Assembly (NCBI RefSeq): GCF_000314995.1
Contig: NZ_BAEO01000069.1
Span: 1-64,000 of the forward strand
Reading direction: 5' to 3'
From: Paraglaciecola arctica BSs20135
GTDB lineage: Bacteria; Pseudomonadota; Gammaproteobacteria; Enterobacterales; Alteromonadaceae
DNA: 64,000 bases
In this document: positions 29,936 to 55,027 of the stretch, piece by piece
How the letters are laid out: every line of letters begins with the position of its first letter
How positions within the stretch are numbered: position 1 is the stretch's first letter
Notes under the pieces: generated by a model
Seen by the model: the letters and a program-made list of their open reading frames with translations, nothing else
The model's database searches: none
Told to the model about the DNA's origin: nothing
Position numbers and translations under genes: made by a program

Positions 29936-32900
29936 TTAATTTAAACATTCCTGAATTATTAGGTTGCCTACATTAGTACTTTTACTAGGATTTGCTGCGT
30001 TTAAGGTTAAAAGAAAGCTATAAGTGCCAGCGGCTAAACTAGTTTGATTGTTACTTTCGCCCGCGCCATCGTAGGCCACAGGATAACTAACTCCAACCGC
30101 TAAGTTTTCGCTATAAATATTGCCGTCTGCAGCTTGTGCCCAAAGTTGTGTTGTCCAACTAGCATCATCAGAAGCTAACTTAAACTGAAAATCACCGCTA
30201 AATTCCGCCACTGCTTGGTAGCTATTGTTGCCTTTGTAATGCAGCCTGTAAGTTTCATCTGGGCCCCAAGCTGAATGACTACCACGCACATAGAGTTGCC
30301 CGCCACCAGCTATGTTAAAGGGAATATCTTGTGCTGAATTGTCTAAAGCAGAACAATTAACGGTTGGCGATACGCTGTTGATTGTCAACACAGGCGTCTG
30401 TTGCGAGGCATCTAACCGAAAATTATAGTTACCTTGAGCACTGACCGTAAAACTTATATTGCCATTTGCGTCAGCACTAGCCGTAACTGAGTTTGAATAG
30501 ATTTGCACATCACTAAAACCAAGGTTTACCAGAGAATAATCGTCGTTAGCAATCTTTAAGCTTTGAGTACCAGCGTCTAGCAGGTAATCAAGGTTATACA
30601 CACCATTTCCAACATAGGAAAAACTGTCTACCGCAGCTAGCCCGTCATCACCAAAATTATTCATTGAACCACGAAGATAAATGCTGGTTTCACCATAAGG
30701 TGCAATATCAGGCTGATTGACAGTAACATCTGCAGCTAAACCAACACCTTGAGCTCCCACTTGCGGCTTAACAAAAACAGCAGTTGTTAGCGCTGGCACA
30801 ATAAAGGTGCCGCTATTGGCTCCGGCGACAAAACTAGCTGTTTGCACAGTAGAGTCTGCTGAAGCTTGTTGCACATTATGAAGCTCAAAATTAGTGGCTG
30901 TTAGAATGTTATGTGACTGCTCGTTGGACGTACCATTAATAATCACAACTATTGCATCAAGGTTTACATCCAAGTCTTCTAGACCGGCACCATCGTCAAG
31001 GCTCATCACAATTAAGCCTTGAGTTTGACTCACGCCTGTATTGTGAAACCCTACACGGTCAATAACATCCTGGGTATTGGTTAATCTAAACAATTTGCTT
31101 GATTGACGAATAGTCACAAACTCTTTAAATACCGATGAAGAAAGAGCAATGTGGCTTATGCTCGTTTGTGCTTCAGCATTAGAAGCCAAGTCGCCAATAG
31201 TAGTCCAGCGCTCTTGATTATTTTCAGCCAGCGGTAAACCTAGATTCCAGTTATTTGAGGTTTTAGTAAAGTCTACCCAATTGAACCAATCCCCGGCATC
31301 GTAGCTATTTCTATCCATTGATTTTGAACGTATCAGGTCTCCACCCAATTGAAAGAAAGGAATACCTTGGCTGATAAGTGGAATAGTCCCGGCGATGTTT
31401 TGTACTCGTACACGATCATCGATAGACATGTCACTAGATAAACCATATTGAAGCTGATCCCATAAGGTTTCGTTATCATGTTTAGACACATAATTAATCA
31501 CATCAGCAGGATCTTTTGCATAAGCAGGCTTAGCCGAATACGCACTGCCTGATTTCACATTGCCGTTTTTATCTTGCATAACATAGTCAGCTAAGGTGCC
31601 AGCTAAACCTAGTCGTATAATGTCTTGATCGTCCAAACTTCCTGAGGTATTAAACAAAGACGCGCTACGAATAATATCTCGGGGGCGGTCGTTAAATGTG
31701 CCGACTTGGCTGCCTGCCATATTGTTTTGATTGGCCTGAGTGTAACCGTTGTTGTTTCGAGTCCAGCCTTCTCCATAAAAGTAATTATCAGAGTCTAGTG
31801 CTTGAACTACGTCTCTAGCATTGAGAATGGAGTCTGCAGAATTATTGCTCATGATATCGAAGCGAAATGCATCAAATTTATAGGCTTGGGTCCACAGCGC
31901 TAGCGAATCAACCATAAGTTTGTTCATCATGGTGTGTTCAGGCGCGGTATCTTCACAACAAGTATCTCGCAACACACTTCCAGTAGTGAGATTTCTGCGG
32001 TGATAGTAGCCAGGCACTATTTTATCTAACACTGAGTTTTCAAATAAACCCGATGAACTAGTGTGGTTATACACCACATCTAAAGACACTCGTAAGCCCA
32101 TTTCATGTAAGCTTTGGATCATGGAACGCATTTCTAAAATACGTACAGTCCCGTCTGGATCAGACGCATAACTGCCTTCAGGCGTCGAATAATGTTTGGG
32201 ATCGTATCCCCAGTTAAAACTATCTAAACCGCGCATTGCATTGGCCAAGGCCTGTGCATCTGAGGTACTAGGATCATAACTTTCAAATACAGATAACAAG
32301 GTCGATGAACTATCCGCTACACCACAAACTGGCGCAGTGCTATTTAGTGCACATAAGTCTGCAACTGTGTCGCTGATATTCACTCTATTAGTTAAGTCTT
32401 CACCAATAGTGGCAATATCATTAGCAGGCAACATTTGAAAATGGGTTAAACCAGCATCAGCAAGGGATTTAAGGTGAGTCACTGGAAGTGAATCTTGCTC
32501 AGTAAAGGCCAGATATTTACCACGATTTGCGACACTAGTACTTTCATCTCTTATGCTAAAGTCACGGATATGCCCTTCGTAAATGATCGCATCTTCAGGA
32601 TCAACAATACTCGGGGAAACATGGGTGTCCCAATTCTGGGGTTTTAGATTGTTATCCTCTAAATTTACAAACTGTGAATAATGACCATTTGTAGAAAGAG
32701 ACACTGCATACGGATCTGTGGTTTCTAATGTCTCAAAACATTGATTGATATAATGATAAACCGTCAGTTCAAATCGATAAAACTGCCTATCCATACTGTT
32801 ATCCAAATCAATTGTCCAAATCCCAGTATTATTATCCAAACTCATAGCCTGACTAGACTGCAATACCTTGTTGACATCATAAATGTTGATATTAACTTGT

Positions 32901-34141
32901 TGAGCAGTTGGCGCCCATACATTTGAGCTAATGCCGTTTGCGTCATATTGCAAACCTAACGGCGCTTCATTCGCATCGTCTGCTCCTGAAGTATAAATGG
33001 CATCTAATATTCGCGGTGTTTGTACATAAGTAGCTGCGACAACCGCATCACTATTATCATAAGCAATGGCTAACAATTTACCTTTCAGCATTTGTTTAAT
33101 ATCAGTTGTTGAAGATGCGTCAGCAGTATAGGCGTCTAAGTCTTGATATCTTGGCATGTGCAGGCCAGTTGACGGATGGGTACCACCTGTTTGCGGAGTA
33201 AATTCTACAAAATCATCTCCTGCGATCCCCACTTCCCCGTTATAACCTAAGTCATCTGCTTCTGAGCTATAAATGCGAACTTTAGCAACGCCGCTGCCAT
33301 TAACATCCCAAAAGACTGTTTGAGTATCCACCCAATGGGCAGCGGTATCAAAAATCAATACGCCAGAAGGAAACAATGTCGCGTCAGGATAGAGTTCACT
33401 TATACCAGATAACGTCCAGAACATTCTATCGCCAGTTAAATCAGCCCGATGATCGGCATCACCTACGTCTTTTTCATCACCCTTGTGCACAATAAAATTG
33501 GCGCAATCACTACTATCTGCCTTTAATGGCAATACCCAATAAGCACCGTAATTAGGATCAATACCACTTTGGGCTTGGCCTACCGACCATTCAGTACCGC
33601 CGCCAGATGCAAAATCTGCGTAGGCATCGCAACTGTCGTTATTCCATAAGTGCAATACCCAACTTTGATAATTTTCATCAGGACGATTGTAAAAAACCAC
33701 CAGTTCATTATCACCAGCCGTCACAATAGGTTGTGGTAAGCCACCACTGCTAGCTTCCAAGGTCAACGACACACTCTGACTAGCAGAAGCATTACTAGCG
33801 TCGGTGACTGTTAAACTAGCGTCTATTGTGCCGGCAAGGGTATAACTAACAAGGGTTGAGGTTGTCGCTAAACAATCGTTTATTGGGATATCTGAAATGC
33901 CATTTCCTGGGCTTAATACACAAGATAATGCATCATTATCGGCGTCAGAGACAGTCCAAGAAAAAGTCACTTCGAATGGATTTGCAGTGCTTATTTCAGA
34001 AGAGAAATTACTGATGGTCGGTGCGTTATTTTGCGCAACCACGGGTGGGTTAGGTTTGGCACTTCCACCTCCTCCACAACCAACTATCATAATCGCCATG
34101 GTCGAGAGAGATAATTGCAGTAATATTTTGGATTGGCTCAT
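29936..34141 (-). CDS. Pullulanase-type alpha-1,6-glucosidase, surface lipoprotein
   Basis: The 1401-residue protein debranches pullulan or starch. It has a lipoprotein signal with lipobox IVGCGGGG (Cys22), an Ig-like segment, a pullulanase-associated domain (SGIDPNYGAYWVLPLKAD), a CBM48-like module, and a GH13 core with FNWGYDP, DVVYNHTSSSG, the nucleophile region FDAFRFDIM, the acid Glu in YGEGW, and SKHDNETLWD. The C-terminal 300 residues hold two modules beginning IYLRGSMNNF and LYVRGSHSAW, like those in the lipoprotein at 47.7-49.9 kb. An operator-like sequence upstream resembles one near that gene. Confidence 0.93.
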   Translation of the reverse strand: MSQSKILLQLSLSTMAIMIVGCGGGGSAKPNPPVVAQNNAPTISNFSSEISTANPFEVTFSWTVSDADNDALSCVLSPGNGISDIPINDCLATTSTLVSYTLAGTIDASLTVTDASNASASQSVSLTLEASSGGLPQPIVTAGDNELVVFYNRPDENYQSWVLHLWNNDSCDAYADFASGGGTEWSVGQAQSGIDPNYGAYWVLPLKADSSDCANFIVHKGDEKDVGDADHRADLTGDRMFWTLSGISELYPDATLFPSGVLIFDTAAHWVDTQTVFWDVNGSGVAKVRIYSSEADDLGYNGEVGIAGDDFVEFTPQTGGTHPSTGLHMPRYQDLDAYTADASSTTDIKQMLKGKLLAIAYDNSDAVVAATYVQTPRILDAIYTSGADDANEAPLGLQYDANGISSNVWAPTAQQVNINIYDVNKVLQSSQAMSLDNNTGIWTIDLDNSMDRQFYRFELTVYHYINQCFETLETTDPYAVSLSTNGHYSQFVNLEDNNLKPQNWDTHVSPSIVDPEDAIIYEGHIRDFSIRDESTSVANRGKYLAFTEQDSLPVTHLKSLADAGLTHFQMLPANDIATIGEDLTNRVNISDTVADLCALNSTAPVCGVADSSSTLLSVFESYDPSTSDAQALANAMRGLDSFNWGYDPKHYSTPEGSYASDPDGTVRILEMRSMIQSLHEMGLRVSLDVVYNHTSSSGLFENSVLDKIVPGYYHRRNLTTGSVLRDTCCEDTAPEHTMMNKLMVDSLALWTQAYKFDAFRFDIMSNNSADSILNARDVVQALDSDNYFYGEGWTRNNNGYTQANQNNMAGSQVGTFNDRPRDIIRSASLFNTSGSLDDQDIIRLGLAGTLADYVMQDKNGNVKSGSAYSAKPAYAKDPADVINYVSKHDNETLWDQLQYGLSSDMSIDDRVRVQNIAGTIPLISQGIPFFQLGGDLIRSKSMDRNSYDAGDWFNWVDFTKTSNNWNLGLPLAENNQERWTTIGDLASNAEAQTSISHIALSSSVFKEFVTIRQSSKLFRLTNTQDVIDRVGFHNTGVSQTQGLIVMSLDDGAGLEDLDVNLDAIVVIINGTSNEQSHNILTATNFELHNVQQASADSTVQTASFVAGANSGTFIVPALTTAVFVKPQVGAQGVGLAADVTVNQPDIAPYGETSIYLRGSMNNFGDDGLAAVDSFSYVGNGVYNLDYLLDAGTQSLKIANDDYSLVNLGFSDVQIYSNSVTASADANGNISFTVSAQGNYNFRLDASQQTPVLTINSVSPTVNCSALDNSAQDIPFNIAGGGQLYVRGSHSAWGPDETYRLHYKGNNSYQAVAEFSGDFQFKLASDDASWTTQLWAQAADGNIYSENLAVGVSYPVAYDGAGESNNQTSLAAGTYSFLLTLNAANPSKSTNVGNLIIQECLN

Positions 34142-34444: not shown

Positions 34445-35662
34445 TTAGCTAGATGATTCAATTTTTGTGTAGTCAATTTTGTTGTCTACAGGGGAACTCA
34501 CTATATTGCGTACCGTTTTAAATTTGCTGTATGCAATAAATATCGCGCAAGCAAAGAACAGCCCAATCACTAATGCACCTACCCACTGAATTTCTAAAAA
34601 TTCCAATTTAAATAACAGGGTTAACAATGCAAGTGCAACAACATTTATCGCAATATAATTAAATTTCCCAAAGCGTTTAACCGTCATATTTAAGTTATCT
34701 GTGTATAAACGGATCAGCGAATCGAGTGAATTGATCACAAACACTATACCTACAAAGGCCATGGCAAAGTTTTTCAAGCCCGCTGTGGGAATACCTGCTT
34801 CGTGGTATTGGTAAAGTACGCTAAACCAAACCGCAATGGGAATTGAAGGAAAAATCAACATAGCACCTAACAACTGATAAGTTTTTAACCCACCCACAAA
34901 GCGGGAGGTAAACTGACCAATCATAATACTCCATGCAAACCACCAAAATAAGTAAAACTCATGGTAAGCATTGAGTGGCAAAACAAAGTCATTAATATTG
35001 CCAAAATAGCCGCCTATCAGCGCTAAATTATCGGTAAATGCTGATACCTGACTGTCGCCGCCCATAAAAGCGCCAAGCCACATAAAGCCAATTAATGCGA
35101 TAAATAACCAGGTGGTAGAGATACTTAGAAAACGCACGTATTTAATGTCGGTGCTTGAATACACAGCAAAACATATGGCAGCCAGAACAATTAAATAGAA
35201 GCTGGGAACAATAGACTCGCCATCACCAATGGCAGGTAAATACCAAGGTAGATTTGAGAGTAGAAGAAAGGCAGTAAAAGCACAGGTACCAATAATGACC
35301 ACATTATTGATAAATTTTACCCAAGGAATGTCGAAAAATTTTACCTTAGGTTCTATCACGCAAAAGTAGAAGCAGGTAACAAAATAGAATCCCCAGATCA
35401 GAAAACCCCAATAGGCAAATTCAATGGCTAGTGGATTGGCAAAACTATATTCTGGATTGCTTTTTAAATCTGCATAACCGGCAAACTCAGTAAGGGGGAA
35501 CATAATCAAGCCAACATCTAGGCCTGAGGTAAATAAAATAGCAATAAAGGTAAAGGTTCTCACAGGTGTAACACCTACGCAGCGCACATTACCCCACTTG
35601 AACAAAATAACCACTATTGCCAATAGGGTGAAGATGATGCCAGCATTAAGCCATAAGGTCAT
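34445..35662 (-). CDS. BCCT-family transporter, short form
   Basis: The 405-residue protein has about ten helices and the BCCT tryptophan signature FWWFAWSIMIGQFTSRF. The motif region of the third helix reads SGLDVGL instead of the usual GMGIG. It is shorter than typical BCCT proteins (500-650): the first helices and the long cytoplasmic tails are missing, yet the frame is open and clean, so it seems a true short form. It lies 135 bp after betA on the same strand, so choline uptake is the likely role. Confidence 0.85.
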   Translation of the reverse strand: MTLWLNAGIIFTLLAIVVILFKWGNVRCVGVTPVRTFTFIAILFTSGLDVGLIMFPLTEFAGYADLKSNPEYSFANPLAIEFAYWGFLIWGFYFVTCFYFCVIEPKVKFFDIPWVKFINNVVIIGTCAFTAFLLLSNLPWYLPAIGDGESIVPSFYLIVLAAICFAVYSSTDIKYVRFLSISTTWLFIALIGFMWLGAFMGGDSQVSAFTDNLALIGGYFGNINDFVLPLNAYHEFYLFWWFAWSIMIGQFTSRFVGGLKTYQLLGAMLIFPSIPIAVWFSVLYQYHEAGIPTAGLKNFAMAFVGIVFVINSLDSLIRLYTDNLNMTVKRFGKFNYIAINVVALALLTLLFKLEFLEIQWVGALVIGLFFACAIFIAYSKFKTVRNIVSSPVDNKIDYTKIESSS

Positions 35663-35797
35663 AATCCCCTGCCCCCAAATAAAGTGTAATATTTCATTAT
35701 TTCCCAGTGCTTTTTATCTCGCATTAACACAGCATAAACAATTTATGGTGTGCACCACTGCAAGCCCCACAGCATCTATGTACTGTAGGTGGCCAGG

Positions 35798-37468
35798 TTA
35801 GATCTTTGAACTACGTTGTACACTTTGCCAATCTTTTGCAATGGCAACGCTTACGTGCGATTGACTCAGTGCTGGCTTCCCTAAAATTAGGTCAGCTGCT
35901 TTTTCTGCCACCATAATGGTTGGTGCATTTAAATTACCGTTGGGTATGGTGGGAAAGATAGAAGAATCCACTACCCTCAGACCCGTAAGCCCTCTGACTT
36001 GGGTGTGTGAGTTAACTACAGCCATATCGTCTTCACCCATTTTGCATGAACATGAAGGATGGTAGGCACTCTCAACAGACTGACGCACAAAGGCATCAAT
36101 TTGCTCATCAGTTTGTATTTCTTTACCAGGTTGAATTTCACCATCGCGATATTCATCAAAGGCATTTTGCTCGATAATTTCACGAGTTAAACGCACACAG
36201 GCTCTAAATCCTTCAATGTCATCTTGATGTTGTAAGTAATTAAATTGAATTTTAGGCGCCACGCTTGGATCCGCTGACTGAATGGTCACCGCACCGCGGC
36301 TTTTGGGTTTGTTATGCCCAACATGCACCTGAAAACCGTGGCCGGAAAAAGCACTTTTACCGTCATAACGCATCGCTGCTGGTAGAAAATGATATTGAAT
36401 ATCAGGCCATTCAACCCCTGGTTTTGAGCGAATAAAGGCGCAGGACTCAAAATGATTGGTCGCGCCTAGGCCACTGCGGGTTAATAACCAACGGGCACCA
36501 ATCAAGCCTTTGGAAATCAAACCCAGCTTGCCATTTAAGGTGATGGGTTGTTTACACTTATACTGAAAGTAAAACTCTAAGTGATCTTGCAGGTTTTGCC
36601 CAACCCCAGGTAAATGATGTTTCACATCAATACCGGCGGCTTTTAGCGTATCGCTATCACCTATGCCTGAAAGCTGTAATAAATGCGGAGAGCCAATAGG
36701 TCCCGCGCTTAGTACTATCTCTTTGCTCGCCTTGGCAGTTACTTTACTGCCCTTAACACTGTACTCGACGGCAACGGCTTTTTTACCTTCTAGCACGACT
36801 TTTTCTGCTAAAGCACCAGTGACTATGGTCAAATTACTACGCGACTTAACCGGGTCAAGATACTCGCGACTTGCCGAGCTGCGTACCCCGTCTTTTACTG
36901 TCATATACATGGGGCCAAAGCCCTCTTGCTGGGCAGCATTGTAATCGTCAGTGCTGGCATAACCAGCTTGCTGGCCGGCTTTAATAAAGGCTTTATAAAG
37001 TGGATTGGCCATTTCATTGCCATTATTCACCCCTAAAGGGCCGTCACTACCACGATAGTTATCTTTGCCTAAATAATAGGATTCCGCTTTTTGAAAATAA
37101 GGTAAACAAGATTGATAATCCCAACCCTCAGCGCCGTGCTGTTGCCATTGATCAAAATCTTTAGCGTGACCACGCACGTATACCATGCCATTGATCGACG
37201 ATGAGCCGCCTAACACTTTGCCCCGTGGGCAATGCATTTTACGACTATCTAAGTATGGCTCTGGTTGTGTATGGAACTGCCACGCGTATTTATCAGAATT
37301 CATGGGAATGGATAAGGCCGTTGGCATTTTAATAAAAATGCTTTTATCACTACCACCAGTTTCCAGTAATAAAACACTATTACTGCTGTCTGCAGATAGT
37401 CGATTGGCCAACACACAACCGGCCGAGCCTGCACCTACTATGATGTAATCATATGTATTTACAACCAT
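35798..37468 (-). CDS. betA: Choline dehydrogenase
   Basis: This GMC flavoprotein oxidises choline to betaine aldehyde at the membrane. The 556-residue protein has the FAD dinucleotide motif [14 protein letters not shown] near residues 12-25, the GMC signature [13 protein letters not shown], the active-site region [13 protein letters not shown], and the terminal [19 protein letters not shown]. Its start shares one base with the betB stop, so the two are coupled. Confidence 0.95.
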
Positions 37469-38943
37469 TAAAACGGGCTCTCTATGTTGCTCATGCCCAC
37501 ATAAATTGATTTGGTTTGGGTGTAGTGATCTAGGGTTTCGATGCCGTTTTCGCGGCCAATACCAGACTGCTTATAGCCACCTACTGGCATTTCGGCTGGT
37601 GAATTACCATAACTATTGATCCAACAAATACCGGCTTGTAATTTATGGGTAACTCGGTGAGCACGTTTAATATCTTGGCTAAACACTCCAGCTGCCAAGC
37701 CCAAATGGGTGTCGTTAGCACGGCGAATAACATCGTCTTCGTCTTCGAACACCAAGACACTCATAACAGGCCCAAAGATCTCTTCTTTGACAATAGTCAT
37801 GTCATCGGTACAGTCGATAAACACAGTGGGTGCCACAAAATAACCATTTGGTGCAGACTCAGGGCTTAAGGTTTTACCACCGGTTAAAAGTGTCGCGCCT
37901 TGGGCTATACCCTTATCTATATAACTCATGACTAAATCTTGATGTTTTTTTGAAATTAACGCACCAAAGTTAACTTGTGGATCAAGGGGATCACCGGCAA
38001 TAATATTTTGTTCGGTGCGGCTTTTAAGCTCTTCAATAAATTGCTGATAGATATTTTTGTGCACGTAAATACGGGTGCAATTAGTGCAAACTTCACCCTG
38101 GGTGTAAAAGTTGCCCAACATGGCTGCGCTAACCGCTTGTGATACATCTGCATCATCAAACACCAGTAGTGGAGACTTACCGCCAAGCTCCATAGTGACA
38201 TCTTTAAGTGAACCTGCTGCACTGGCGACCACTTTTTTACCTGTACCCACTTCACCGGTGAAGGATACTTTTGCGATATCAGGGTTATGGGTTAACCACT
38301 GCCCTACTTCAGCCGCGCCTTGCACAACGTTAAACACGCCAGCTGGCACACCTGCCTCGGTATAAATTTCTGCTAATTTTATCGCGCCTAAAGGGGTTTC
38401 TTCTGAAGGTTTAAAGATAAGGGCATTGCCCGCAGCTAGTGCGGGACCTGACTTCCAACAAGCAATTTGTAATGGGTAATTCCAGGCACCAATGCCGGCG
38501 CAAATACCTAAGGGTTCTTTACGGGTATAGTAAAAATCTTCGGCAACCATTTGCTGTTGACCCACTTGTGCAGGAGCAAGTCCGGCAAAGTATTCAATCA
38601 CATCGGCACCAGTTTGCACATCCACACACTCGGCTTCTTGCCAGGGCTTACCGGTATCTAACACTTCAATTTTTGCCAATTCATCATTACGTTCACGGAG
38701 CAAAGTCACGGCTTTTAATAAAATACGACTACGTTCAATAGGCGTCAGTGCCGACCAGACAGCAAAACCTTGTTTTGCACTTTGAATGGCGGCGTCTTGA
38801 ATAAATTTATCAGCGACTTCAACATGATAAATCACCTCATCAGTGGCAGGGTTTGTGACCGCAAAGGTGGCACCATTTTGATTGGCTAAAAACTTGCCAT
38901 TAATAAAATTTTGGTAAACAGGTATCGTCAATTTAAGCTCCAT
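37468..38943 (-). CDS. betB: Betaine aldehyde dehydrogenase
   Basis: It oxidises betaine aldehyde to glycine betaine with NAD(P)+. The 491-residue protein has the catalytic glutamate in [16 protein letters not shown] and the catalytic cysteine in [10 protein letters not shown], the usual BADH sequence. [14 protein letters not shown] and FTGEVGTG mark the cofactor site. It overlaps betI by 11 bases and betA by 1, giving the order betI-betB-betA. Confidence 0.95.
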
Positions 38944-39523
38944 ACAGTTTGATAAGTGAACTCACGTAGTTTTTAGCTAATTGCTCACTGTGATTAAATT
39001 GATCTTGATCAGACTTACTCAGTACTGCCCTTAACCACAAGCCGTCGATCATTGCGGCACATAACTGAGCTGCTAGTTTGGCGTCGTCATCGCCCATTAG
39101 TTTTTTAAATGAACTGGCTAAATTACTTAATAGTCGTTTACTATTTACATTCTGCAAACGATGTAATTCAACGTCGTGCATCGATTGTGCCCAAAAGCTT
39201 AACCAGGTTTTGGTGGTATCACTTAATTGCTGTAACCGCGCAAAATTTGCTTCAATAATCAGCATTAATCTTTGTTCTGGTGTTGTCGTGGGGCTTACGC
39301 GTTCAATCAGTGCATGCTTTAAGCCAGTTAATAGATAACGCACAGTCGCTTCAATAAGCGCCTGTTTACTGCCAAAATAGTGACTGATAATGCCTGATGA
39401 CATTCCAGCGCGACGAGAAATAAGGTTAATGGTAGCACCACGCAGACCTACATCTGCAATCACCTCAATAGTGGCATCGATCAACTGCTGACGACGCATC
39501 GGTTCAATTCCTACTTTTGGCAT
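38933..39523 (-). CDS. betI: TetR-family choline-responsive repressor
   Basis: The 196-residue protein begins with [20 protein letters not shown], as BetI does, and has a TetR helix-turn-helix ([20 protein letters not shown], about residues 33-52). BetI represses the bet genes and is released by choline. It lies inside the unit, 24 bp after the PhoD-like gene, with no promoter space of its own. Its probable sites are the ATTGAACGTTCAAT palindromes at 43149-43164 and 45836-45849. Confidence 0.93.
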
Positions 39524-39547
39524 ATATTTCCTACACAGTTGGTATTG

Positions 39548-40588
39548 TTAATAAGGTTCAAGCAATGACAGCCTAAACCTGTGTTCGTTTACAACGTCAC
39601 CCGCCTCATCATATAGACCTAGGGTTATAATTGGATCTTGTTTTTGCCAATTCACATTTAGCGCCCCATAGTTTACGTTATTGGTAAACTGACCTATACG
39701 ATTTTTATTGGGACTAACGTTTTTCCATTCTTCTGTTAATCCTGATGAGGTAACTTCCCATAAGGGATAATCAAGATCCTGATCATAATAACTAACTTCC
39801 CCCCAATGGGTGTCACCGCTTATAAGTACAACACCATTGACTTTATGCTGCTTAATAAGCTTGAACAAACGCTGGCGATCAGCAGGGAAATTTGCCCAAG
39901 ATTCCCAACCGGTAAAGTCTGCCAACAATTGTACACTAGAGCCAATAACTTTTATCCGACCTGGTTTTTGTAATTCTTGTTCGAGCCATAACCATTGCTT
40001 TTCACCCAGCATACTGGCGTTTATATCGCTGCTTGCTTTATAAGGACCCATTTTGTTGGGTTTACGTTCACTCGCATATTCTTCGGGAGATACATGAGAC
40101 AGGGGATCACGGTTCCAGCGCAGATCCGGTAAAATGACACGAATACTCTGTTGCCCTTCTCCGTATAGGTAAGAAGTATAAATACCATCTTCACGAGTAC
40201 GGCGGATTGAGTTTTCAGGTTCTTGCCAAAAATCCAGCATAAGTGCTCGAGAGGCTTCTTTCATGGGGTATTCCTTACCCGCGTCGTTAGCACCAAAATC
40301 GTGGTCATCCCAGATGGCGATTAATTCTGCCTGCTCTTTTAATTTTTTAAAACCCGGCTTAGCGCCCAGTTTTTGATATTTGTTGCCCAACACTGTCATG
40401 TCTTGAGTGTCGCCATAAATATTGTCCCCAAGAAAAATAAACACCTCAGGGTTGTCTTTTATAATGCTATTAAAAATAGCCATGTCTTTATCTTGATGAG
40501 AACAAGAGCCAAACAAAATACGGCTTGGTGCCTTGGCGCAGACCACAGCGCTAAACAATAAAATAAAAATTGCTAATAATCTCAGCAT
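39548..40588 (-). CDS. PhoD-family metallophosphoesterase, exported
   Basis: The 346-residue protein has a Sec-type signal peptide (MLRLLAIFILLFSAVVCAKA) and the PhoD-like metal motifs FGSCSHQD, FLGDNIYGD, IWDDHDFG and ISGDTHWGE. PhoD-family enzymes are phosphodiesterases or phosphomonoesterases, and some secreted members (Streptomyces chromofuscus phospholipase D) release choline from phosphatidylcholine. Its position between a TonB receptor (74 bp) and betI (24 bp) suggests it frees choline from a phosphorylated choline compound. The substrate is inferred. Confidence 0.85.
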   Translation of the reverse strand: MLRLLAIFILLFSAVVCAKAPSRILFGSCSHQDKDMAIFNSIIKDNPEVFIFLGDNIYGDTQDMTVLGNKYQKLGAKPGFKKLKEQAELIAIWDDHDFGANDAGKEYPMKEASRALMLDFWQEPENSIRRTREDGIYTSYLYGEGQQSIRVILPDLRWNRDPLSHVSPEEYASERKPNKMGPYKASSDINASMLGEKQWLWLEQELQKPGRIKVIGSSVQLLADFTGWESWANFPADRQRLFKLIKQHKVNGVVLISGDTHWGEVSYYDQDLDYPLWEVTSSGLTEEWKNVSPNKNRIGQFTNNVNYGALNVNWQKQDPIITLGLYDEAGDVVNEHRFRLSLLEPY

Positions 40589-40662
40589 GGACGATTGCCT
40601 TTTTTTCCAAACATAAAGTAGGTCACATACAATATTATTGCATGTGACCTATTAACCTATTG

Positions 40663-43029
40663 TTACAAGACGAATTTAGCGTTAAGCGCCGCAATACGTG
40701 GTGCACCAATCCAACCTGCACTTGGCGCTATAGAGCCAAGGTAATCTTGGTCAAAGACGTTGTTTACTGTAAAGCTCAGCTCAATACTGTCGATAGCTCC
40801 ACCAATATCATATGCCGTTTTACCAATATACAGATCACTTACTATGTAAGAGTCAGTTTTCTGGGTATTTGCTTGGTCTAAGTAGCGCTCACCTACGTAC
40901 TTAGTGCTAAAACCAGCGTATAAATCACCTTTGCTATAATCAAAGCTAATCACAGCCATGTCTTTAGCACTACCTAACACAGTATTACCGCGGAAATCTT
41001 CGTCCGTGTAAGTAGCATCATTTTTTGTATAAGAAACGTAAATACCAAAATTGTCGTTGAAATTGTAATCAACTGAAGCTTCGATACCGTCTGACTCAAT
41101 ACCACCGTCGTTAATGTATCCTCCTGCAGCGGCTTCTAAGAAGTCAATGCCATTAACATCTTCATTACTCACAAAAGTAATACGGTTTTCAAACTTGATA
41201 TTGTAATAAGTAAGACTGGCATTAAAACCTGGGCTTGAATAACGCAGACCAAGGTCAATGTTATCCGCAGTTTCAGGTTCAACTAAACTTAAATCAGTAT
41301 CGTCACGCTCTAACACAGCATCTTTAATGGCGGCAAAGTTTTCTGCATAACCACCAAACACTTCTAGGCCACGCAACGGTAAAGGAGCAACAAAACCAGC
41401 TGAAATTAAGGCGTCGGAGTCTGAGGATACGTTCAAGTCATTAGCAGGCGTAAATTGATCTTCTTTAACTACCTCAACATTAAACTTCTTTGCACCCAGG
41501 CGGAACGTGGCAAAACCAGCATCTATTTCGTCTTCAACGTAGTACATCAAAGTCTCTACAGGGAACTCACGATCATACTGAACCCAGTAAGGATTGTTCT
41601 CTGCTCTAGGGCTTGATGCTGCATCAATAGTTTTATGCCAGTCACGATATTCATCACGCTGATAATCTTCATACCAGAAACCACCGCGTACTGTATTTTC
41701 CATACCTGCGATACTAGTGTTCCATTTAAAGTCAGCATTTATGCCGTAGCGCTTTTTGTTGTAATGAGTGTGACGATTAGAACTGACAGGCATAGCACCT
41801 TGCTCGTAACAACCTGGGTCTAGAGCTGCCCCGGCTCCGCCATAAGGAAAGCCGATAGAGCTGGCACAGCCTTCAATAGGTGAAAGTGACTGACCTGCAC
41901 GGTCAACAAAATAAATGAGCCCCTGAGATGCACCGCCGTATATGGTGCTAGAAGCATCTAGTTCTGAGTTAGGATTACCGGCGCCGTCATCGATAACATC
42001 CACCATGTAATAAGGGATCCATTTACCTGCGCCTTCGTTCTCGTGGTAATAGACATTAGAGCTAACATCCACATCACCCAAAGTAAAATCTGCTTTTACA
42101 TAAGTAAACAGGTTTTCACGCTCAGTAATCCAACCTTCACGCCAGACCTGATCTTGATAAGGTACACCTGTCCAAACTTCAGTTAATCCATCCCAATCTG
42201 GGTTTTGCTCATATTGTGCTAAGCCATAGACGCGCTGGTAAGTATATTCCTGAGCGTCGTCATAACTGATATAAGCGGTTAAATTAACTTCACCAATGCG
42301 ACTGATTATTTTACCTTCAGCATGATCTCTAGAGTTCGTTATTGAACCGCCCATATAGTCGTCGTTTTGTTGACTTGATATAGACAACCAAGCAAAAGTG
42401 TCTTGCGCGATTTCACCGGTATCGTAGCGAACATAGACTTTTTTCGCATTGTACTCACCTAAAGTGGTACTGACTGTAAGTTGCTCATCAAACGCTGGAA
42501 GTATAGTAGTGAAATCTAGCGTACCGCCCAGTGCTTCGTTTGAGCGACTGCCTATGTCGGCGGTACCTTGAGATACTTCTGTGGCGCGTAAATTTTCAGT
42601 ATCGATATAACGGCTGGCTTTAGTACCACCGCCGTAATTTGAATTACCGTTAGAAATGCCATCAACTGTCATGCCTATTTGCTGGGATGCTAAATTCAAC
42701 TCAAAGCCGCGGATTGAAATGCTTGTTGACCATTCATCGGAACCAAAGGGGTCACCTTCAGTTACCAATACGCCTGGCAGGTTATCGATCAAAGCCAAAG
42801 CACTTGTCATAGGAGTTTGCTGTTTTTTCATTTCAGCAGAAGATGCGGCGTTTGCGTAAGAAACACTGCGGCCAGTAACCACAATGGATTCCATTGGTTG
42901 TTGTTTTTCTTCGGTTTTAGCTTGTGATTCTTGATCCTCTTGAGCCATTGCTGGTAACGAGGTAATAGATATTGCAGATAGCACAGAGAGTGCGATTAAA
43001 CTTTGCTTCATGGGCACATTAGTGTTCAT
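40663..43029 (-). CDS. TonB-dependent outer-membrane receptor, choline cluster
   Basis: The 788-residue protein has a signal peptide ending in PAMA-QED, a TonB-box-like segment (MESIVVTGRS), a plug domain with LIDNLPGVLV and ISIRGFELN, and a 22-strand barrel ending in a terminal phenylalanine segment (LNAKFVL). A start at residue 7 (MKQSLIAL) is possible. BetI-like palindromes lie 89-135 bp upstream and the PhoD-bet genes follow on the same strand, so the ligand is probably a choline-containing molecule too large for porins. Confidence 0.9.
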   Translation of the reverse strand: MNTNVPMKQSLIALSVLSAISITSLPAMAQEDQESQAKTEEKQQPMESIVVTGRSVSYANAASSAEMKKQQTPMTSALALIDNLPGVLVTEGDPFGSDEWSTSISIRGFELNLASQQIGMTVDGISNGNSNYGGGTKASRYIDTENLRATEVSQGTADIGSRSNEALGGTLDFTTILPAFDEQLTVSTTLGEYNAKKVYVRYDTGEIAQDTFAWLSISSQQNDDYMGGSITNSRDHAEGKIISRIGEVNLTAYISYDDAQEYTYQRVYGLAQYEQNPDWDGLTEVWTGVPYQDQVWREGWITERENLFTYVKADFTLGDVDVSSNVYYHENEGAGKWIPYYMVDVIDDGAGNPNSELDASSTIYGGASQGLIYFVDRAGQSLSPIEGCASSIGFPYGGAGAALDPGCYEQGAMPVSSNRHTHYNKKRYGINADFKWNTSIAGMENTVRGGFWYEDYQRDEYRDWHKTIDAASSPRAENNPYWVQYDREFPVETLMYYVEDEIDAGFATFRLGAKKFNVEVVKEDQFTPANDLNVSSDSDALISAGFVAPLPLRGLEVFGGYAENFAAIKDAVLERDDTDLSLVEPETADNIDLGLRYSSPGFNASLTYYNIKFENRITFVSNEDVNGIDFLEAAAGGYINDGGIESDGIEASVDYNFNDNFGIYVSYTKNDATYTDEDFRGNTVLGSAKDMAVISFDYSKGDLYAGFSTKYVGERYLDQANTQKTDSYIVSDLYIGKTAYDIGGAIDSIELSFTVNNVFDQDYLGSIAPSAGWIGAPRIAALNAKFVL

Positions 43030-43117
43030 AGAAAATCCTGTTTAGTTTGTGTGTGTTTATTATGTGTGGGTGCAGATCCTCAAGACTGGGTAAATTGTGA
43101 TTTCAGGGTTTATATTA

Positions 43118-43164
43118 ATTGATTGTTCAATCAATATCAAATTTGATTAATTGAACGTTCAATT
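43118..43164. promoter_or_regulatory. Double BetI-type operator before the TonB receptor
   Basis: AATTGAACGTTCAATT (43149-43164) is a perfect 16-bp palindrome and ATTGATTGTTCAATCAAT (43118-43135) is a second, variant one. The known E. coli BetI site has the similar ATTGATTGGACGTTCAAT form. Neighbouring bases (TTCAGG then TATTAATTGA) are shared with the site before the PHP gene, suggesting duplicated promoters. Confidence 0.75.
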
Positions 43165-43346
43165 TAAAATAAAATAGCCACATAAAAATCATGCATTCTG
43201 TTTGAACTTGAACGGCTTGAACTACCGACAAGCAGCAATATTCTCTTATTGTTATTTTTCAAAATTTTGGCGACAGCCAAATTAAGGCACTTGAGTCTAG
43301 GCAGACAAGTCCATGACCTATTAACAGCTTATCAATCACCCAAAAA

Positions 43347-43376
43347 AAAGAGGGCATGTTCACACATGCCCTCTTT
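43347..43376 (-). terminator. Rho-independent terminator of the PHP gene
   Basis: AAAGAGGGCATGT/ACATGCCCTCTTT is a perfect 13-bp stem with loop TCAC. On the minus strand it ends in a run of eight T, 41 bp after the PHP-gene stop. The strong stop here separates the PHP gene from the receptor-bet unit. Confidence 0.85.
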
Positions 43377-43416
43377 ATTTGATCTTCTATTGTTTTAATA
43401 CACTAACTAACACACA

Positions 43417-45690
43417 TCAGAATTGTGTTTTATCCACCAACTGCAGCCATATAGGGTTTGAGAAAGCTTTGTGTTCCTTATTATCCTCAACAACTAAACT
43501 TAGCCATCCTGATTTTAGAGGTAAATCAAATACCACAGAGGCATTCTCGCCAGTTAAGCTTTGCTCACTGATCACACCTGCATTGCCAATTAACTGCACA
43601 GACTTAAGGCCATTGACTGATAACAGCTCAAAACTAATAGATTGCGGCTGATTTTTAGCTAGCTTTATGGTGTCGCCAAACATCACATTTTGCGGATAGA
43701 TTATTGGACCAAACGACACATAAGAGCGGCCATTTTTCATCGCCTGAGCAAAGGCTTTAGCGTTTGGTTTACTGCCTGTATATACAAAAATACGGTTAAG
43801 CCCGCTGGTTTCATTCCACACATCATGGGTGTCAGAACCAGCAGTATAATAATAAGGTAGGCCTGCAGACCATAACTGGCGCGCTTTCTTAACTACCTGC
43901 CTATAATCCACTACTGCATTTATCTCGAGCAGATCAATGGCTGGGTCAAAACCACCCACTGCAGTATTTTTCTCTAGACTGCTTAGATAACCATAAGGAA
44001 TGTAGGGATGGTTAGAAGCAACTACTGTTGCTCCCATATGCCTAGCATCTTTAATGATCTGATGGATATCATCCACCCCAGGATCTACCGATAGTTGTGC
44101 GCCAATATCAATGGGGAAAGCATTAAAATGCCCCCAAGATGGCGAGAATTCTATTGATGGAATAAAGGGTATGCCACGTTTATCCGATAACGCTTTAATA
44201 GTCCCATGGTTCCTGATGGAGTCATGATCACTGACAAAAGTAACATTTAGACCCGCAGCCAGCTGCGAACGCACTAGATACTCTGGTGATGTCGAACCTT
44301 CCAGTACATCTGAATGATGATGCAAATCACCGGCATACCAGCCTTGTTGTGTTGGATAAGTACTAACCGGTATTACGCTGGCCAGATGGCTGGTTTTATT
44401 GGCAACAACGCTGACATCAAGCAATACAGGTTTCGCTAAAAAATCGCCACCAGCAGACACTTTAAGCTGATAATCGCCAGGGGCCAAAGTGAATTTTGCC
44501 TGCCCAACACTAGTTAACTCAGTGAAAAAGGTTTTTGCACCAAAAAATTCAATCAAAGGTTTAGCACCTTTTTCAATCTGAATTTTAGCGTCTAATGCCG
44601 CTCTTGTTTGAGCGTCTGTTACCTGAATATTCACTTCGCCTGGGGCCAAAAGATCGCTAAATGAAAGGCTTTGCGAGCCACCATTTTTGATACTTATGTC
44701 TTGTATTGCACTGTCTGAATAACCTTTACTGGTGGCGTATACCTGATAATCCCCCACAGGTAGGTCAAGCTTATATTGGCCATTCTTACCCAGTGCCCAA
44801 ATGTATGGCACACCATCCTTGAGCACTACAAGAGCAGGCTCATCCACAGACTTACCCTGTTGTGTTTTCACCTTGCCTGTTAATGTTCCGGCTGGCAGAT
44901 TTTTACGCTCAATCTCGGCACTAACCACAGGCGCAAGGTCGCCACTGGCCAGCACTTGATAGTCACCTTCAAATGACATGGATTGTGATTTTTTCAAGCT
45001 ATGTTTTGTGTAGAGATCCCGCGATTGATATCTCAGTTCTGTCATATAAGGTGCATGCAAGGCAACCGCCCAATCGGCGCCATAACCAACAAAACGGTCT
45101 GCTAAAGGCTCAGTCACTAGCGCCTCTACTTTTCCCGCATAACCGGGTACGGCAAACTTATAACCGCCATCGGGCCACAATGCGTAACCGGATAACATAT
45201 CTGCTAATGCTTCCCCTTCGTTGGTCATCGTGGTTTTAACATGAATAAGATCAGAACCAGTTGCTAGGCTATAAACAGTGCTAATGACCACCTCACCAAA
45301 ATCCCGAGTAATCTTAACTATCGCTTCGTCCTTAGAATCTTTAATGATATCGAGCTTTTGATAAGTGTTCGGCCAGCTTGACCAGTTGTTCGGCATAAAA
45401 TCCGCAAAGGCAACACGATCATGACTTAAAGATCCATCCTTTCGAACGTTGGCAATATCCACAATACAACCACGGGCTACCCCCCAAGGAGGCGCTGAAC
45501 CTAACGCTAAAGAAAACGCCAACTTGTCATTTCTAATGGTTAAGTCTTTCTCAGAAGTCGCGTTGCCACCCGGGATGATAGTTTTGCCGTGAATAATACT
45601 GACAGCTGCATGACTTTGCGATGAGACAGCCAAACCAGAAGCTAACATTAGGGCACAAACAAAGGGGAAACTGCGAAACGGTTTTATCAT
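43417..45690 (-). CDS. CehA/McbA-type PHP-domain metallohydrolase, exported
   Basis: The 757-residue protein has a signal peptide (MIKPFRSFPFVCALMLASGL), an N-terminal beta-rich region, two carboxypeptidase-regulatory-like segments (about 255-430), and a C-terminal PHP domain with GDLHHHSDVLEGS, FVSDHDSIRNHG, SIEFSPSWGHFN and AGSDTHDVW, which carry the metal-binding His and Asp residues. The CehA/McbA group includes a carbaryl hydrolase, but most members are uncharacterised phosphoesterases or esterases. A BetI-like palindrome 146 bp upstream ties it to choline use; the substrate is unknown. Confidence 0.85.
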   Translation of the reverse strand: MIKPFRSFPFVCALMLASGLAVSSQSHAAVSIIHGKTIIPGGNATSEKDLTIRNDKLAFSLALGSAPPWGVARGCIVDIANVRKDGSLSHDRVAFADFMPNNWSSWPNTYQKLDIIKDSKDEAIVKITRDFGEVVISTVYSLATGSDLIHVKTTMTNEGEALADMLSGYALWPDGGYKFAVPGYAGKVEALVTEPLADRFVGYGADWAVALHAPYMTELRYQSRDLYTKHSLKKSQSMSFEGDYQVLASGDLAPVVSAEIERKNLPAGTLTGKVKTQQGKSVDEPALVVLKDGVPYIWALGKNGQYKLDLPVGDYQVYATSKGYSDSAIQDISIKNGGSQSLSFSDLLAPGEVNIQVTDAQTRAALDAKIQIEKGAKPLIEFFGAKTFFTELTSVGQAKFTLAPGDYQLKVSAGGDFLAKPVLLDVSVVANKTSHLASVIPVSTYPTQQGWYAGDLHHHSDVLEGSTSPEYLVRSQLAAGLNVTFVSDHDSIRNHGTIKALSDKRGIPFIPSIEFSPSWGHFNAFPIDIGAQLSVDPGVDDIHQIIKDARHMGATVVASNHPYIPYGYLSSLEKNTAVGGFDPAIDLLEINAVVDYRQVVKKARQLWSAGLPYYYTAGSDTHDVWNETSGLNRIFVYTGSKPNAKAFAQAMKNGRSYVSFGPIIYPQNVMFGDTIKLAKNQPQSISFELLSVNGLKSVQLIGNAGVISEQSLTGENASVVFDLPLKSGWLSLVVEDNKEHKAFSNPIWLQLVDKTQF

Positions 45691-45835
45691 TATTCTTTAC
45701 CTTATGCAGACAATAAAGCCTGCTTTTTTTGCTAATGAGATTAATAGCAGTAGCTTGTAATCGAAGCTCAGCACCTGAGTCTATTAACGAGCATACGAAG
45801 AATCGCTATGATTGTAACTTCAGGTATTTTTATTA

Positions 45836-45849
45836 ATTGAACGTTCAAT
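45836..45849. promoter_or_regulatory. BetI-type operator before the PHP gene
   Basis: ATTGAACGTTCAAT is a perfect 14-bp palindrome identical to the core at 43150-43163. The 30 bases on its left (ATTGTAACTTCAGG, then TATTAATTGA) also resemble the receptor promoter. Confidence 0.75.
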
Positions 45850-47697: not shown

Positions 47698-49863
47698 TTA
47701 TTCCTTAACGGTTATCGTTAATACCGGTGCGCCAACTATGGTCGCATCGACAGTAAAGATATAAGTTGTTTGTTCAGCAACCTCTAATCTTATATTTTCC
47801 GTACCGCCGTCATTTTTTATGGCAACAGTTAACGGCTCGGCAGCTAACACTACATTCATGTCAAGCAATCCACCAATAGTTGAATCATCTTCCCACTCAG
47901 CAGAAGCCACTTTAAACTCATGAGTTGCCGCGTCTAAAGTAGTTTCTAGGGTAAAGATACCTGCAGCATAAGTGAATTCATAGGCAGCGTCGTTACTCCA
48001 ACCGTTCATAGTTCCTTTAAGCATCAAAGTTCTGGCAGCAAAAGGTGTGTATTCACTTACCACTAATACCGGTGCATGTTTGTCGGTCGCATCAATATCA
48101 AACTGATACATAGCTGGTGCATCAACTACAAACCTTAAGTTTTCTGTGCCACCGTCATCTTTTACCGCTACTGTAAGTGCTTCATCCTGGGTAATTAGGT
48201 TATTTTCAGGTAAGCCACCTATAGAAGCTGCATCGTTCCAATCATCTGGAGCAATTTTAAACTCATGAGTGGCGGTATCTAACAAGGTTGCCAAAATATA
48301 GTGGTTGTCGGCATAACCAAAACCAAAACCTTCAACTTGTGACCAATCGTTCATAGTCCCTTTTAGGTACAATGCATTGTTACCGTAAGGCACAGCTGTG
48401 CTGACCGTTAATATCGGCGCTTCAGAAGAAGTAGCATCAAGTACAAATTTATAATTACCCGCTTCGGCAATAGTGATAGCGATGTTTTGTGCAACACCTT
48501 CACCAAACACTAAACTTTTTGACACATCTAGGTCGAGCATTTCGTCACCTAACGCAGCACCAAAATTAGTATCATCAGTCCAGGTTGCATCGGCCACTTT
48601 AAATTCGTAATCAGTCTCAGCTAAAGTGAAAACAGAAGTGTAAATATTCTGCCCTTCATACACCATAGCTTGAGTGTTGCTCCATTCGTTTAAGGTTCCT
48701 TTTACGTACATAACCTTTTTAAGAGGCACTTCTATGACAGTTAAAACAGGTAATTCAGGGTCGGTCGCATTAAAGATAAACTGATAATTAGCGTCTGCTG
48801 ATACAGTAAAAGTTATGTTTTGACTAACATCTTCTCCCACTACAAGGGTTTTATCTTCTCCCAATACAACTGGCTCTTCAGTAGCTGCCGCGCCAAAAGA
48901 AGTAGGCTCTGACCAAAGATCATCTGCAACTTTAAAGCTATAGTCGTCTGCTGAAGCTGTTAATGAAGCAACCATGGTATAAACACCATCAGCATATTCA
49001 AATACGTATTCAGCTTTAATTTCATCTGTAGCTTCGTCACCAAGCCAACCGTTAAATGAACCTTTCAAATAAAGTGTTGCATCACCTGGAACAAAAGTTA
49101 CTAAGGCAGTTGGGTCATCGATACATGCATCGCCCGTCTCGTTCAATATCAGTGGTTCGTCACAAGTAAGTGTTGAGCCACCTGGTACCACTAATGAATC
49201 AAAGGTACGTGGATGAGGAAAAACAAGGTCTAAACCTTCAAGTAAAAAGAAGCGATTAGTTGGATTAACAGTTTCGTCTGCTAGCTGTGCAATGGCAGTA
49301 AATTGAACTTGAAGACTTGCATCAAAATTATAAGGGATCCAGTTACCACAATTAGGATTAGTTTTTGTATCCATAACCCAGTAAACACCAAAATTTGGAT
49401 CAACACCTACCGGATCAATTGGGATACCCCAACTTGTACCTGTTACCGCATCATCACCACCTGGTGCATCAAACATTGCCCATGAAGTACATTGTCCTTC
49501 ATTGAAGGCATGTAAGCCCCAACCTGTATATTCTTCATCTTTTAGTGCGTAATATAGAACAACTTCGCCATCTTTAGGGACGTACTCAGGCTCAGGCATA
49601 GTGATGCCGTTGGTGCCATCTGGCCATGCGCCAGTATCCATAGCACACAAGCCCAAATCGTTAGGTACTTCAGGATAGTTACAAGGCACAATAACAAGTT
49701 CACATGCCGAACCGTCTTCGGTTAACGTTTCGGGGGCTTTACATATTAATAAGGTATCTGCGGTGCCGGTCAATCCTACTTGATCACCTCCACAGCTAGA
49801 CAATACTGCTGCAGATAATGCAAACAGCATAGTAGTTAAAAGTTTCTTCATGTACATAGACAT
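47698..49863 (-). CDS. Lipoprotein with pullulanase-associated domain and four repeated glucan-binding-like modules
   Basis: About 721 residues, a lipoprotein with lipobox LSSCGG. A pullulanase-associated-type domain (VGVDPNFGVYWVMDTKTN) is followed by four modules of about 105 residues beginning LYLKGSFNGW, MYVKGTLNEW, LYLKGTMNDW and LMLKGTMNGW. No catalytic motif was seen, so it probably binds starch-type glucan at the cell surface, like SusE/SusF. I choose the ATG at 49863: GGAG lies 9 bases upstream, whereas a TTG start further up would lie inside that site; ATGs at 49857 and 49851 remain possible. Confidence 0.8.
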   Translation of the reverse strand: MSMYMKKLLTTMLFALSAAVLSSCGGDQVGLTGTADTLLICKAPETLTEDGSACELVIVPCNYPEVPNDLGLCAMDTGAWPDGTNGITMPEPEYVPKDGEVVLYYALKDEEYTGWGLHAFNEGQCTSWAMFDAPGGDDAVTGTSWGIPIDPVGVDPNFGVYWVMDTKTNPNCGNWIPYNFDASLQVQFTAIAQLADETVNPTNRFFLLEGLDLVFPHPRTFDSLVVPGGSTLTCDEPLILNETGDACIDDPTALVTFVPGDATLYLKGSFNGWLGDEATDEIKAEYVFEYADGVYTMVASLTASADDYSFKVADDLWSEPTSFGAAATEEPVVLGEDKTLVVGEDVSQNITFTVSADANYQFIFNATDPELPVLTVIEVPLKKVMYVKGTLNEWSNTQAMVYEGQNIYTSVFTLAETDYEFKVADATWTDDTNFGAALGDEMLDLDVSKSLVFGEGVAQNIAITIAEAGNYKFVLDATSSEAPILTVSTAVPYGNNALYLKGTMNDWSQVEGFGFGYADNHYILATLLDTATHEFKIAPDDWNDAASIGGLPENNLITQDEALTVAVKDDGGTENLRFVVDAPAMYQFDIDATDKHAPVLVVSEYTPFAARTLMLKGTMNGWSNDAAYEFTYAAGIFTLETTLDAATHEFKVASAEWEDDSTIGGLLDMNVVLAAEPLTVAIKNDGGTENIRLEVAEQTTYIFTVDATIVGAPVLTITVKE

Positions 49864-50080
49864 AAATGGTTTCTCCAAGTGTGTTACTCAGCTGCTAGCC
49901 TGTAAAAGCTAATAGCTTCGATGGTTATTTCTCTAGTTATTAAAATGACACTGTCACGTAATCAAAAAACTATTCCAGGAGTCCTTACCATCATGCTCAG
50001 TGTAGGAATTCGCATCTACTATCATTCGAGCAAGGCTATTGTTGATTAATTGTAATATGTTGTAAATGAAATACATGGCT

Positions 50081-50098
50081 TATGAATACGTATTCATA
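50081..50098. promoter_or_regulatory. Operator-like perfect palindrome between lipoprotein and TonB receptor
   Basis: TATGAATACGTATTCATA is a perfect 18-bp palindrome centred on CG, typical of LacI-family sites. It lies in the 507-bp divergent region, about 220 bp from the lipoprotein start and 273 bp from the receptor start. A 12-of-14 match is found upstream of the pullulanase gene. Apart from promoters, nothing else was seen in this region. Confidence 0.7.
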
Positions 50099-50370
50099 AT
50101 TTGCAGCAGATACGCACAAAAACACCTATCCAGTTGTTTTTTAAGGTAATAATTGAAATTAACTCTAATTTAAGCGCCATTTTGGCATTTTCGCATGTTA
50201 ATAAAAGGTTGTATTTGGGCCCCGAGCTATTAGCATTATCATCGTCACGTTACACCTAAAACTTCCTAAATTAGATATGGATTATCGAATATTTTTACAG
50301 TTCACAAAGACGCTACATATAAAAGGTGTCTGGTCTGTAAGTTACTAGAACACACTAGGAAATACACATA

Positions 50371-53343: not shown

Positions 53344-53358
53344 TTGTTAGTTAAAAAC

Positions 53359-53387
53359 AACAAGAGCCACAATATGTGGCTCTTGTT
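53359..53387 (+). terminator. Terminator after the TonB receptor
   Basis: AACAAGAGCCACA/TGTGGCTCTTGTT is a perfect 13-bp stem with a 3-base loop followed by TTATTTTC. It probably lowers read-through into the halogenase-like gene. Confidence 0.85.
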
Positions 53388-53501
53388 TATTTTCGAGCAT
53401 AAATATTGGGTTAGAGCTTTTTAATAAATGAGGCTTTAACCCAATGTGTAAACTCAGTTCTAATTAGTTTACCTTTAATTTAAAAATCCTTTGCAGAGAC
53501 T

Positions 53502-55016: not shown

Positions 55017-55027
55017 TAGTAATAAAT

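Follow-up and report, generated by a model that had tools for sequence, protein, structure and literature searches.

A candidate BetI-regulated operon for capturing choline-bearing phosphoesters in Paraglaciecola arctica

We investigated a stretch of 64,000 nucleotides from Paraglaciecola arctica BSs20135 (positions 1 to 64,000 of contig NZ_BAEO01000069.1, hereafter the window), which carries a TonB-dependent receptor (TBDR) gene, a PhoD-family phosphoesterase gene and the betI, betB, betA and BCCT-type transporter genes in one run, with a PHP metallohydrolase gene upstream. We consider it moderately probable that this locus is a choline-responsive capture operon for a choline-bearing phosphoester, and the best reading is that a phosphoester uptake locus resembling Pus loci came under the control of the repressor BetI. 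Gene content, box conservation, linkage and trees were obtained by computation; from these we infer BetI binding, induction, export, the substrate and the order of cleavage. The features are as follows.

34445-35662, minus strand: short BCCT-type transporter, 405 aa, probably for choline (PF02028, E 2.4e-6; profile A4)
35798-37468, minus strand: betA, choline dehydrogenase (TIGR01810, 791.7 bits, cut-off 732.1)
37468-38943, minus strand: betB, betaine-aldehyde dehydrogenase (TIGR01804, 673.4 bits, cut-off 668.6)
38933-39523, minus strand: betI, choline-responsive TetR-type repressor (TIGR03384, 243.3 bits, cut-off 201.3)
39548-40588, minus strand: PhoD-family phosphoesterase, 346 aa (PF09423, E 2.7e-21, above the Pfam cut-off; alignment A3)
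40619-40651, minus strand: terminator-like hairpin between TBDR and phoD (consensus scan only)
40663-43029, minus strand: TBDR, 788 aa (PF00593; tree)
43118-43131, unstranded: imperfect BetI-like site ATTGATTGTTCAAT, 2 mismatches, before TBDR
43150-43163, unstranded: putative BetI box, exact ATTGAACGTTCAAT, starting 134 bp before the TBDR start codon
43347-43376, minus strand: terminator-like hairpin 3' of PHP (consensus scan only)
43417-45690, minus strand: PHP metallohydrolase, CehA/McbA type, 757 aa (NF038032, E 1.6e-74; alignment A1)
45836-45849, unstranded: putative BetI box, exact ATTGAACGTTCAAT, starting 159 bp before the PHP start codon

The gene set, coordinates, single direction and small gaps read earlier from the sequence alone were confirmed: the minus-strand order is TBDR-phoD-betI-betB-betA-BCCT, with intergenic gaps of 74, 24, -11, -1 and 135 bp, and the PHP gene stands separately upstream. 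The hairpin at 43347-43376 would separate PHP from the TBDR operon. The window BetI and E. coli BetI share 47% identity and have closely similar helix-turn-helix regions. The BCCT-like protein scores marginally below the PF02028 gathering score (26.7 against 27), and the first PDB matches of its family profile A4 were BetT choline-transporter chains (E 2.8e-7; 504-505 aa against 405 aa). No betC was found among the cluster genes by Pfam and NCBIfam scans.

The same reading had pointed to identical palindromes before the TBDR and PHP genes, and these are indeed exact copies of ATTGAACGTTCAAT, the only two in the genome (5,964,456 bases), against none for a backwards control pattern. The site ATTGATTGTTCAAT may form a tandem operator with the exact box that lies 32 bp away before the TBDR. 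When mismatches were allowed no excess was found, either at 3 mismatches in the window (5 sites against a shuffle mean of 4.91) or at 2 mismatches in the genome (36 sites against 36 for the backwards control), and we therefore gave weight only to exact or near-exact copies that are properly placed. A site with 1 mismatch on another contig of the genome (C15) lies inside an open frame and was rejected. Within 350 bp of betI no site was found (the best candidate has 5 mismatches), and the gene would therefore be expressed from the promoter of the TBDR, unless an unseen promoter and the hairpin ahead of phoD intervene.

Across 196 genomes of the family, drawn evenly and including that of P. arctica, we identified the exact palindrome in 46, at 58 places in total, compared with one copy each in 5 genomes for the backwards control. 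The surroundings of all 58 were fetched and scored with a 300-bp limit, gene starts for this count, for box positions at single loci and for the survey of PhoD loci below being estimated from BLAST alignments. Forty-seven lie within that distance upstream of betI (30), of divergent betI and TBDR genes (7), of a TBDR (8) or of PHP (2). The remaining 11 have no betI, kindred TBDR or PHP within 300 bp downstream; 7 of them sit inside open frames, one being an aldehyde dehydrogenase gene whose product is 37% like BetB, and the other 4 are intergenic and form two look-alike pairs (L188/L193 and L195/L198) that were seemingly inherited. A form with 1 mismatch, ATTGGACGTTCAAT, lies between betI and betT in E. 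coli MG1655, and the footprinted BetI1 region of Ruegeria pomeroyi contains ATTGACGCGTCAAT, according to the available part of its description (PMC12442346). The palindrome is thus very probably a BetI operator, and the conservation of the box, together with the bet linkage of both genes in relatives, supports the earlier proposal that BetI would control the receptor and PHP. At one further locus (L203, 11582-11956) a partial second betI copy with its own exact box stands near an intact bet operon.

PhoD relatives were present in 69 of the 196 genomes (E<=1e-30), and our module survey comprised all 53 PhoD loci at E<=1e-100. Fifty of these lie near a TBDR and 34 near an alkaline-phosphatase-superfamily phosphodiesterase (AP), usually in the order TBDR-AP-PhoD; for the three loci that have no TBDR the box was measured before PhoD, and they were dropped from the Pho-box analyses. 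One correction to the sequence-only reading is that the TBDR-PhoD pair is not special to this locus: it belongs to a wider module, often with AP, that has no betI nearby at 35 of the 53 loci. PhoD relatives also adjoin more distant TBDRs in Alphaproteobacteria and Burkholderiales, and an order-wide survey of 295 genomes added little (PhoD at E<=1e-60 in 15, PHP in 5).

At the 18 PhoD loci near betI we found the window layout seven times, betI divergent from TBDR-(AP)-PhoD nine times, a TBDR-AP-PhoD-betI arrangement once and a longer run once. In all 18 the TBDR is preceded by a BetI box with at most 2 mismatches (an exact one in 12), against 3 of the 35 unlinked loci (Fisher 2e-11, kinship being ignored). 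The longer run (L254, 4207-13803, genome G037) reads TBDR-AP-PhoD-betI-betB-betA-BCCT without interruption, with a box of 1 mismatch before the TBDR and one of 2 mismatches before betI. Outside the family, PhoD stands beside betA, betB, BCCT and BetI-type TetR genes on a Kordiimonadaceae contig. At another locus (L046, 2284-3942) an alkaline-phosphatase gene, whose match to the PhoA model is weak and falls short of the cut-off, follows betI-BCCT on the same strand, divergent from a boxed TBDR-AP-PhoD, and its product could strip phosphate from phosphocholine.

On the PhoD tree, betI linkage has to change 7 times and the box 6 times. We additionally inferred a TBDR tree of 49 rows, from which 4 duplicate loci, rows with stops or shorter than 600 aa, and receptors below 38% identity were left out (two Caulobacter rows being kept). 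The window TBDR falls within a clade of 13 rows (100/100), for 12 of which bet genes are present in the same fetched region. Its members are partnered by PhoD (7), PHP (5) or neither nearby (1), the window, which has both, being counted under PhoD; that both enzymes partner the same receptor clade suggests that they serve one import route. It is very improbable that the TBDR instead imports a metal chelate, such as a siderophore, in a bet neighbourhood unrelated to choline. The top NCBIfam match of the receptor is TonB-siderophor, although at 117.8 bits it is well under the cut-off of 223.5, and PhoD enzymes contain iron (PMC4223295, available part), whereas kindred TBDRs lie near PhoD at 50 of the 53 loci and are BetI-boxed at every betI-linked one.

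The window PhoD is the sole match of its kind in its genome (E<=1e-30) and belongs to the family by its PF09423 match and by conserved Cys and Tyr residues at the iron-ligand motifs: Cys29 and Tyr58 are invariant in 21 of 21 rows of alignment A3, the iron-ligand role being assigned by motif. It is probably exported, as is PHP, each having an N-terminus that looks signal-like by eye. In the available part of PMC4223295, the Cys subfamily of PhoD includes Bacillus subtilis PhoD and the Streptomyces chromofuscus phospholipase D, and the characterised PhoD enzymes include a phospholipase D as well as a phosphodiesterase for which teichoic acids are the presumed target. Because both types are represented, the window PhoD could make either cut.

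The AP proteins of the module match Pfam Phosphodiest, with invariant residues at the NPP-type metal-ligand motifs. The nucleophile motif, its place assigned by motif, reads S-Y-P-G-Y in 21 of the 23 rows of alignment A2 and S-S-P-G-Y and S-F-P-G-Y in the other two; in a control of 30 PF01663 loci only the two AP orthologues were positive for the Ser-Tyr motif, the control being crude and the nucleophile unreadable in many loci. A predicted model (predicted local distance difference test, pLDDT, 92.7) led a fold search to the alkaline-phosphatase superfamily broadly (YejM-like, LTA synthase, NPP, sulfatases) and to no substrate, and the family profile gave only weak NPP and phosphoglycerate-mutase matches in the PDB (best E 8e-4). 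On contig C66 of P. arctica itself (L246, 5730-9296), TBDR and AP genes stand together with no PhoD, perhaps as the remainder of a unit that lost it; an esterase-like gene comes next.

We searched for Pho-box-like sites within 400 bp before the TBDR, allowing up to 3 mismatches of 14 to the consensus. Such sites occur in 12 of the 32 betI-unlinked TBDR-PhoD loci (mean for permuted motifs 1.36; none of the 400 attained 12), compared with 2 of the 18 betI-linked loci, a number that 69 of 400 permuted motifs matched. The other 20 unlinked loci have no Pho-box-like site, and 3 of those bear a BetI box. The window locus has none (best 5 mismatches, equalled by 35 of 40 shuffles), and by this measure shows no sign of the phosphate-starvation control of TBDR and phosphoesterases that characterises Pus loci. 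Part of the unlinked module thus looks phosphate-controlled, and the linked form choline-controlled. A module that is choline-wired in some hosts and phosphate-wired in others would indicate a phosphocholine-type substrate, since a molecule bearing both phosphate and choline would explain both wirings.

The same data bear on a different explanation, in which TBDR-AP-PhoD is a general organophosphate scavenger for phosphate, joined by bet genes because both are useful, with choline no part of the substrate. We consider this unlikely. It would account for the 35 loci that have no nearby betI and for the Pho-box-like sites in 12 of the 32 that bear a TBDR, and it has a parallel in Bacteroidetes Pus loci, which in the available part of PMC8115612 combine TBDRs and phosphodiesterases under phosphate starvation. 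Against it, betI linkage has changed about seven times on the PhoD tree, each linked locus carries its box before the TBDR, and no clear excess of Pho-box-like sites was found among the linked loci.

PHP belongs to the CehA/McbA type (NF038032, 251.1 bits against a cut-off of 80), and its metal-site residues (His457-459, His489, Asp490, His561, Asp620 and His622) are invariant in 10 of 10 rows of alignment A1. We identified PHP in 10 of the 196 genomes (E<=1e-40), with bet genes or a box tied to it in 8: four genomes of the same genus (L172-L175) have a boxed operon betI-betB-betA-BCCT-TBDR-PHP, P. arctica and G104 have an exact box for PHP itself, in G024 a box with 2 mismatches precedes a TBDR-PHP pair, and in G194 PHP lies downstream of betI, betB and betA remnants. 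A decayed bet operon (L180, 5490-12989) retains betI, betB and betA fragments, a 2-mismatch box and interspersed genes, with an intact PHP last. The bet linkage that the sequence-only reading proposed to look for in relatives was found for both the TBDR and PHP genes, the greater share of PhoD loci being unlinked.

CehA, the namesake of the PHP family, cleaves a carbamate ester, and the substrate might accordingly be a non-phosphate choline ester (e.g. acyl or aromatic) cut by PHP, with PhoD as a side partner. This is distinctly unlikely: the four operons of the same genus that have PHP and no PhoD agree with it, whereas PhoD is the partner of the TBDR at seven loci of the same receptor clade. 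The PDB sequence matches of PHP, an amidohydrolase (E 1.2e-7) and a non-significant putative phosphoesterase (E 0.07), point to no one type of chemistry, and its predicted model is poor (pLDDT 66.1).

Several observations weigh against the window locus being a choline-responsive capture operon. Within the window, the terminator-like hairpin at 40619-40651 lies between TBDR and phoD, and the AP gene of P. arctica sits on contig C66, away from the window locus, adjoining a boxless TBDR paralogue. Among relatives, the PhoD loci that are not near betI outnumber those that are, the difference in Pho-box-like sites between unlinked and linked loci reaches p 0.056, and the supported branches of the PhoD tree provide 3 independent pairs, none contrary, which is below significance. 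The L172-L175 bet operons pair TBDR with PHP without PhoD. PHP is without linkage or box in G161 and G088, and likewise in G299 and G388, two genomes outside the family that have PHP at 83% identity and probably acquired the gene by transfer. Loci of G144, G133 and G172 carry an exact box in genomes with no BetI homologue (E<=1e-8). On the PhoD tree the G144 locus is sister to a betI-linked locus, and those of G133 and G172 cluster first with a boxless locus that is not betI-linked and then with two that are; these boxes are likely relics. At one of the three, L215 (8828-9850), a LacI-type regulator gene precedes the boxed TBDR, and this regulator may read the palindrome there.

Under the choline-capture reading, BetI on its boxes would, when choline is absent, repress both the TBDR-phoD-betI-betB-betA-BCCT operon and PHP, and this repression would be lifted when choline is present, as proposed from the behaviour of the BetI family. 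The TBDR would import a choline-bearing phosphoester that porins exclude by size or that is held at the surface, candidates being lysophosphatidylcholine, phosphatidylcholine vesicles, and glycerophosphocholine-type or phosphocholine-decorated oligomers. The phosphoester would be cleaved to choline by exported PhoD, possibly together with the AP whose gene lies elsewhere in the genome, the short BCCT protein would move choline over the inner membrane, and BetA and BetB would oxidise it to glycine betaine. PHP would belong to the same regulon as a further exported hydrolase and might be interchangeable with PhoD, and the TBDR-AP-PhoD part would be a phosphoester-scavenging module with a phosphate-controlled look in other species. 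The substrate and the cleavage steps are drawn from the gene content and the double regulation. What stands of the choline-ester capture first suggested is the uptake of a choline-bearing phosphoester, as the most economical function.

More tentatively, and with more doubt than conviction, the data may be read as a portable module of TBDR, NPP-like phosphodiesterase and PhoD for phosphocholine-bearing molecules that has repeatedly been switched between a phosphate regulator and BetI. The same substrate would then supply some marine bacteria with phosphorus and others with an osmolyte or with nitrogen, and in the genus of P. arctica PHP, as a new class of choline-ester hydrolase, would have replaced the phosphoesterases.

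Much natural choline is bound in phospholipids and similar esters, and the usual associations of TonB receptors are with iron, vitamins, glycans or phosphate. If the choline-capture reading is true, a TBDR governed by a choline repressor would give choline-bearing molecules an entrance of their own through the outer membrane, and phosphorus and nitrogen cycling would be linked via a change of regulator alone. Testable roles also follow from it for three families of which little is known: the receptor clade of the window, the AP protein and PHP of the CehA/McbA type. The flanks of the locus (29936-34141 and 47698-56722) encode a pullulanase, a protein with starch-binding-type domains, a TonB receptor, and tryptophan-halogenase-like and FG-GAP/ASPIC proteins, with no evident tie to choline.

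Among known systems, the canonical betIBA(T) operon of E. coli and others shares betI, betB, betA, a BCCT-type transporter and a box of the same form with the window, whose regulon adds an outer-membrane receptor and hydrolases and whose transporter is short, at 405 aa. For the systems that follow, the comparison extends to the available parts of the papers cited. ENPP6 is a choline-specific glycerophosphodiesterase in which Ser71, Tyr72 and Tyr75 form the nucleophile and choline pocket (PMC4757880). The AP proteins of relatives resemble it in having a Ser nucleophile, Tyr at +1 and +4 in agreeing spacing, and NPP-type metal ligands, in a comparison made by motif, without structural superposition. 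Unlike ENPP6, they form a remote, bacterial family; 17 of 23 AP rows have fewer than two Cys and so cannot form the insertion-loop disulfide. In a hand alignment on DxxxH to the Glu190/Tyr188 pocket, the acidic Glu is one residue off and the place of Tyr188 is non-aromatic (the next residue being L, F or Y). As the disulfide and the acidic residue disagree, we did not assign the AP to ENPP6 and keep the resemblance as a lead only.

No description of BetI, a TonB receptor and PhoD together was found among the matches listed for open-access titles and the starts of abstracts, a scope outside which subscription journals and regulon databases fall. To this extent the literature agrees with the earlier statement that no system with this gene set had been described, which is qualified by two close systems, the Pus loci and a Phaeobacter pathway. 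More distantly, in the R. pomeroyi bet clusters with betC, BetI likewise governs an enzyme that releases choline from an ester ahead of its oxidation (PMC12442346, PMC4744692), acting there on a sulfate ester through BetC, in contrast to the PhoD, PHP and TBDR of the window. In the phospholipid headgroup catabolism of Phaeobacter, which is Pho-dependent and feeds the Bet enzymes, phosphocholine is split outside the cytoplasm and choline passes via BetT, BetA and BetB, as we propose here; unlike the window, that pathway uses PhoX and PhoB, has separately induced Bet proteins and lacks PhoD, and TonB is unmentioned in the available text (PMC10132767). Finally, Bacteroidetes Pus loci likewise place a TonB-dependent receptor beside phosphomonoesterases and phosphodiesterases, with SusCD pairs and phosphate-starvation induction there (PMC8115612) in place of the BetI box and bet genes of the window.

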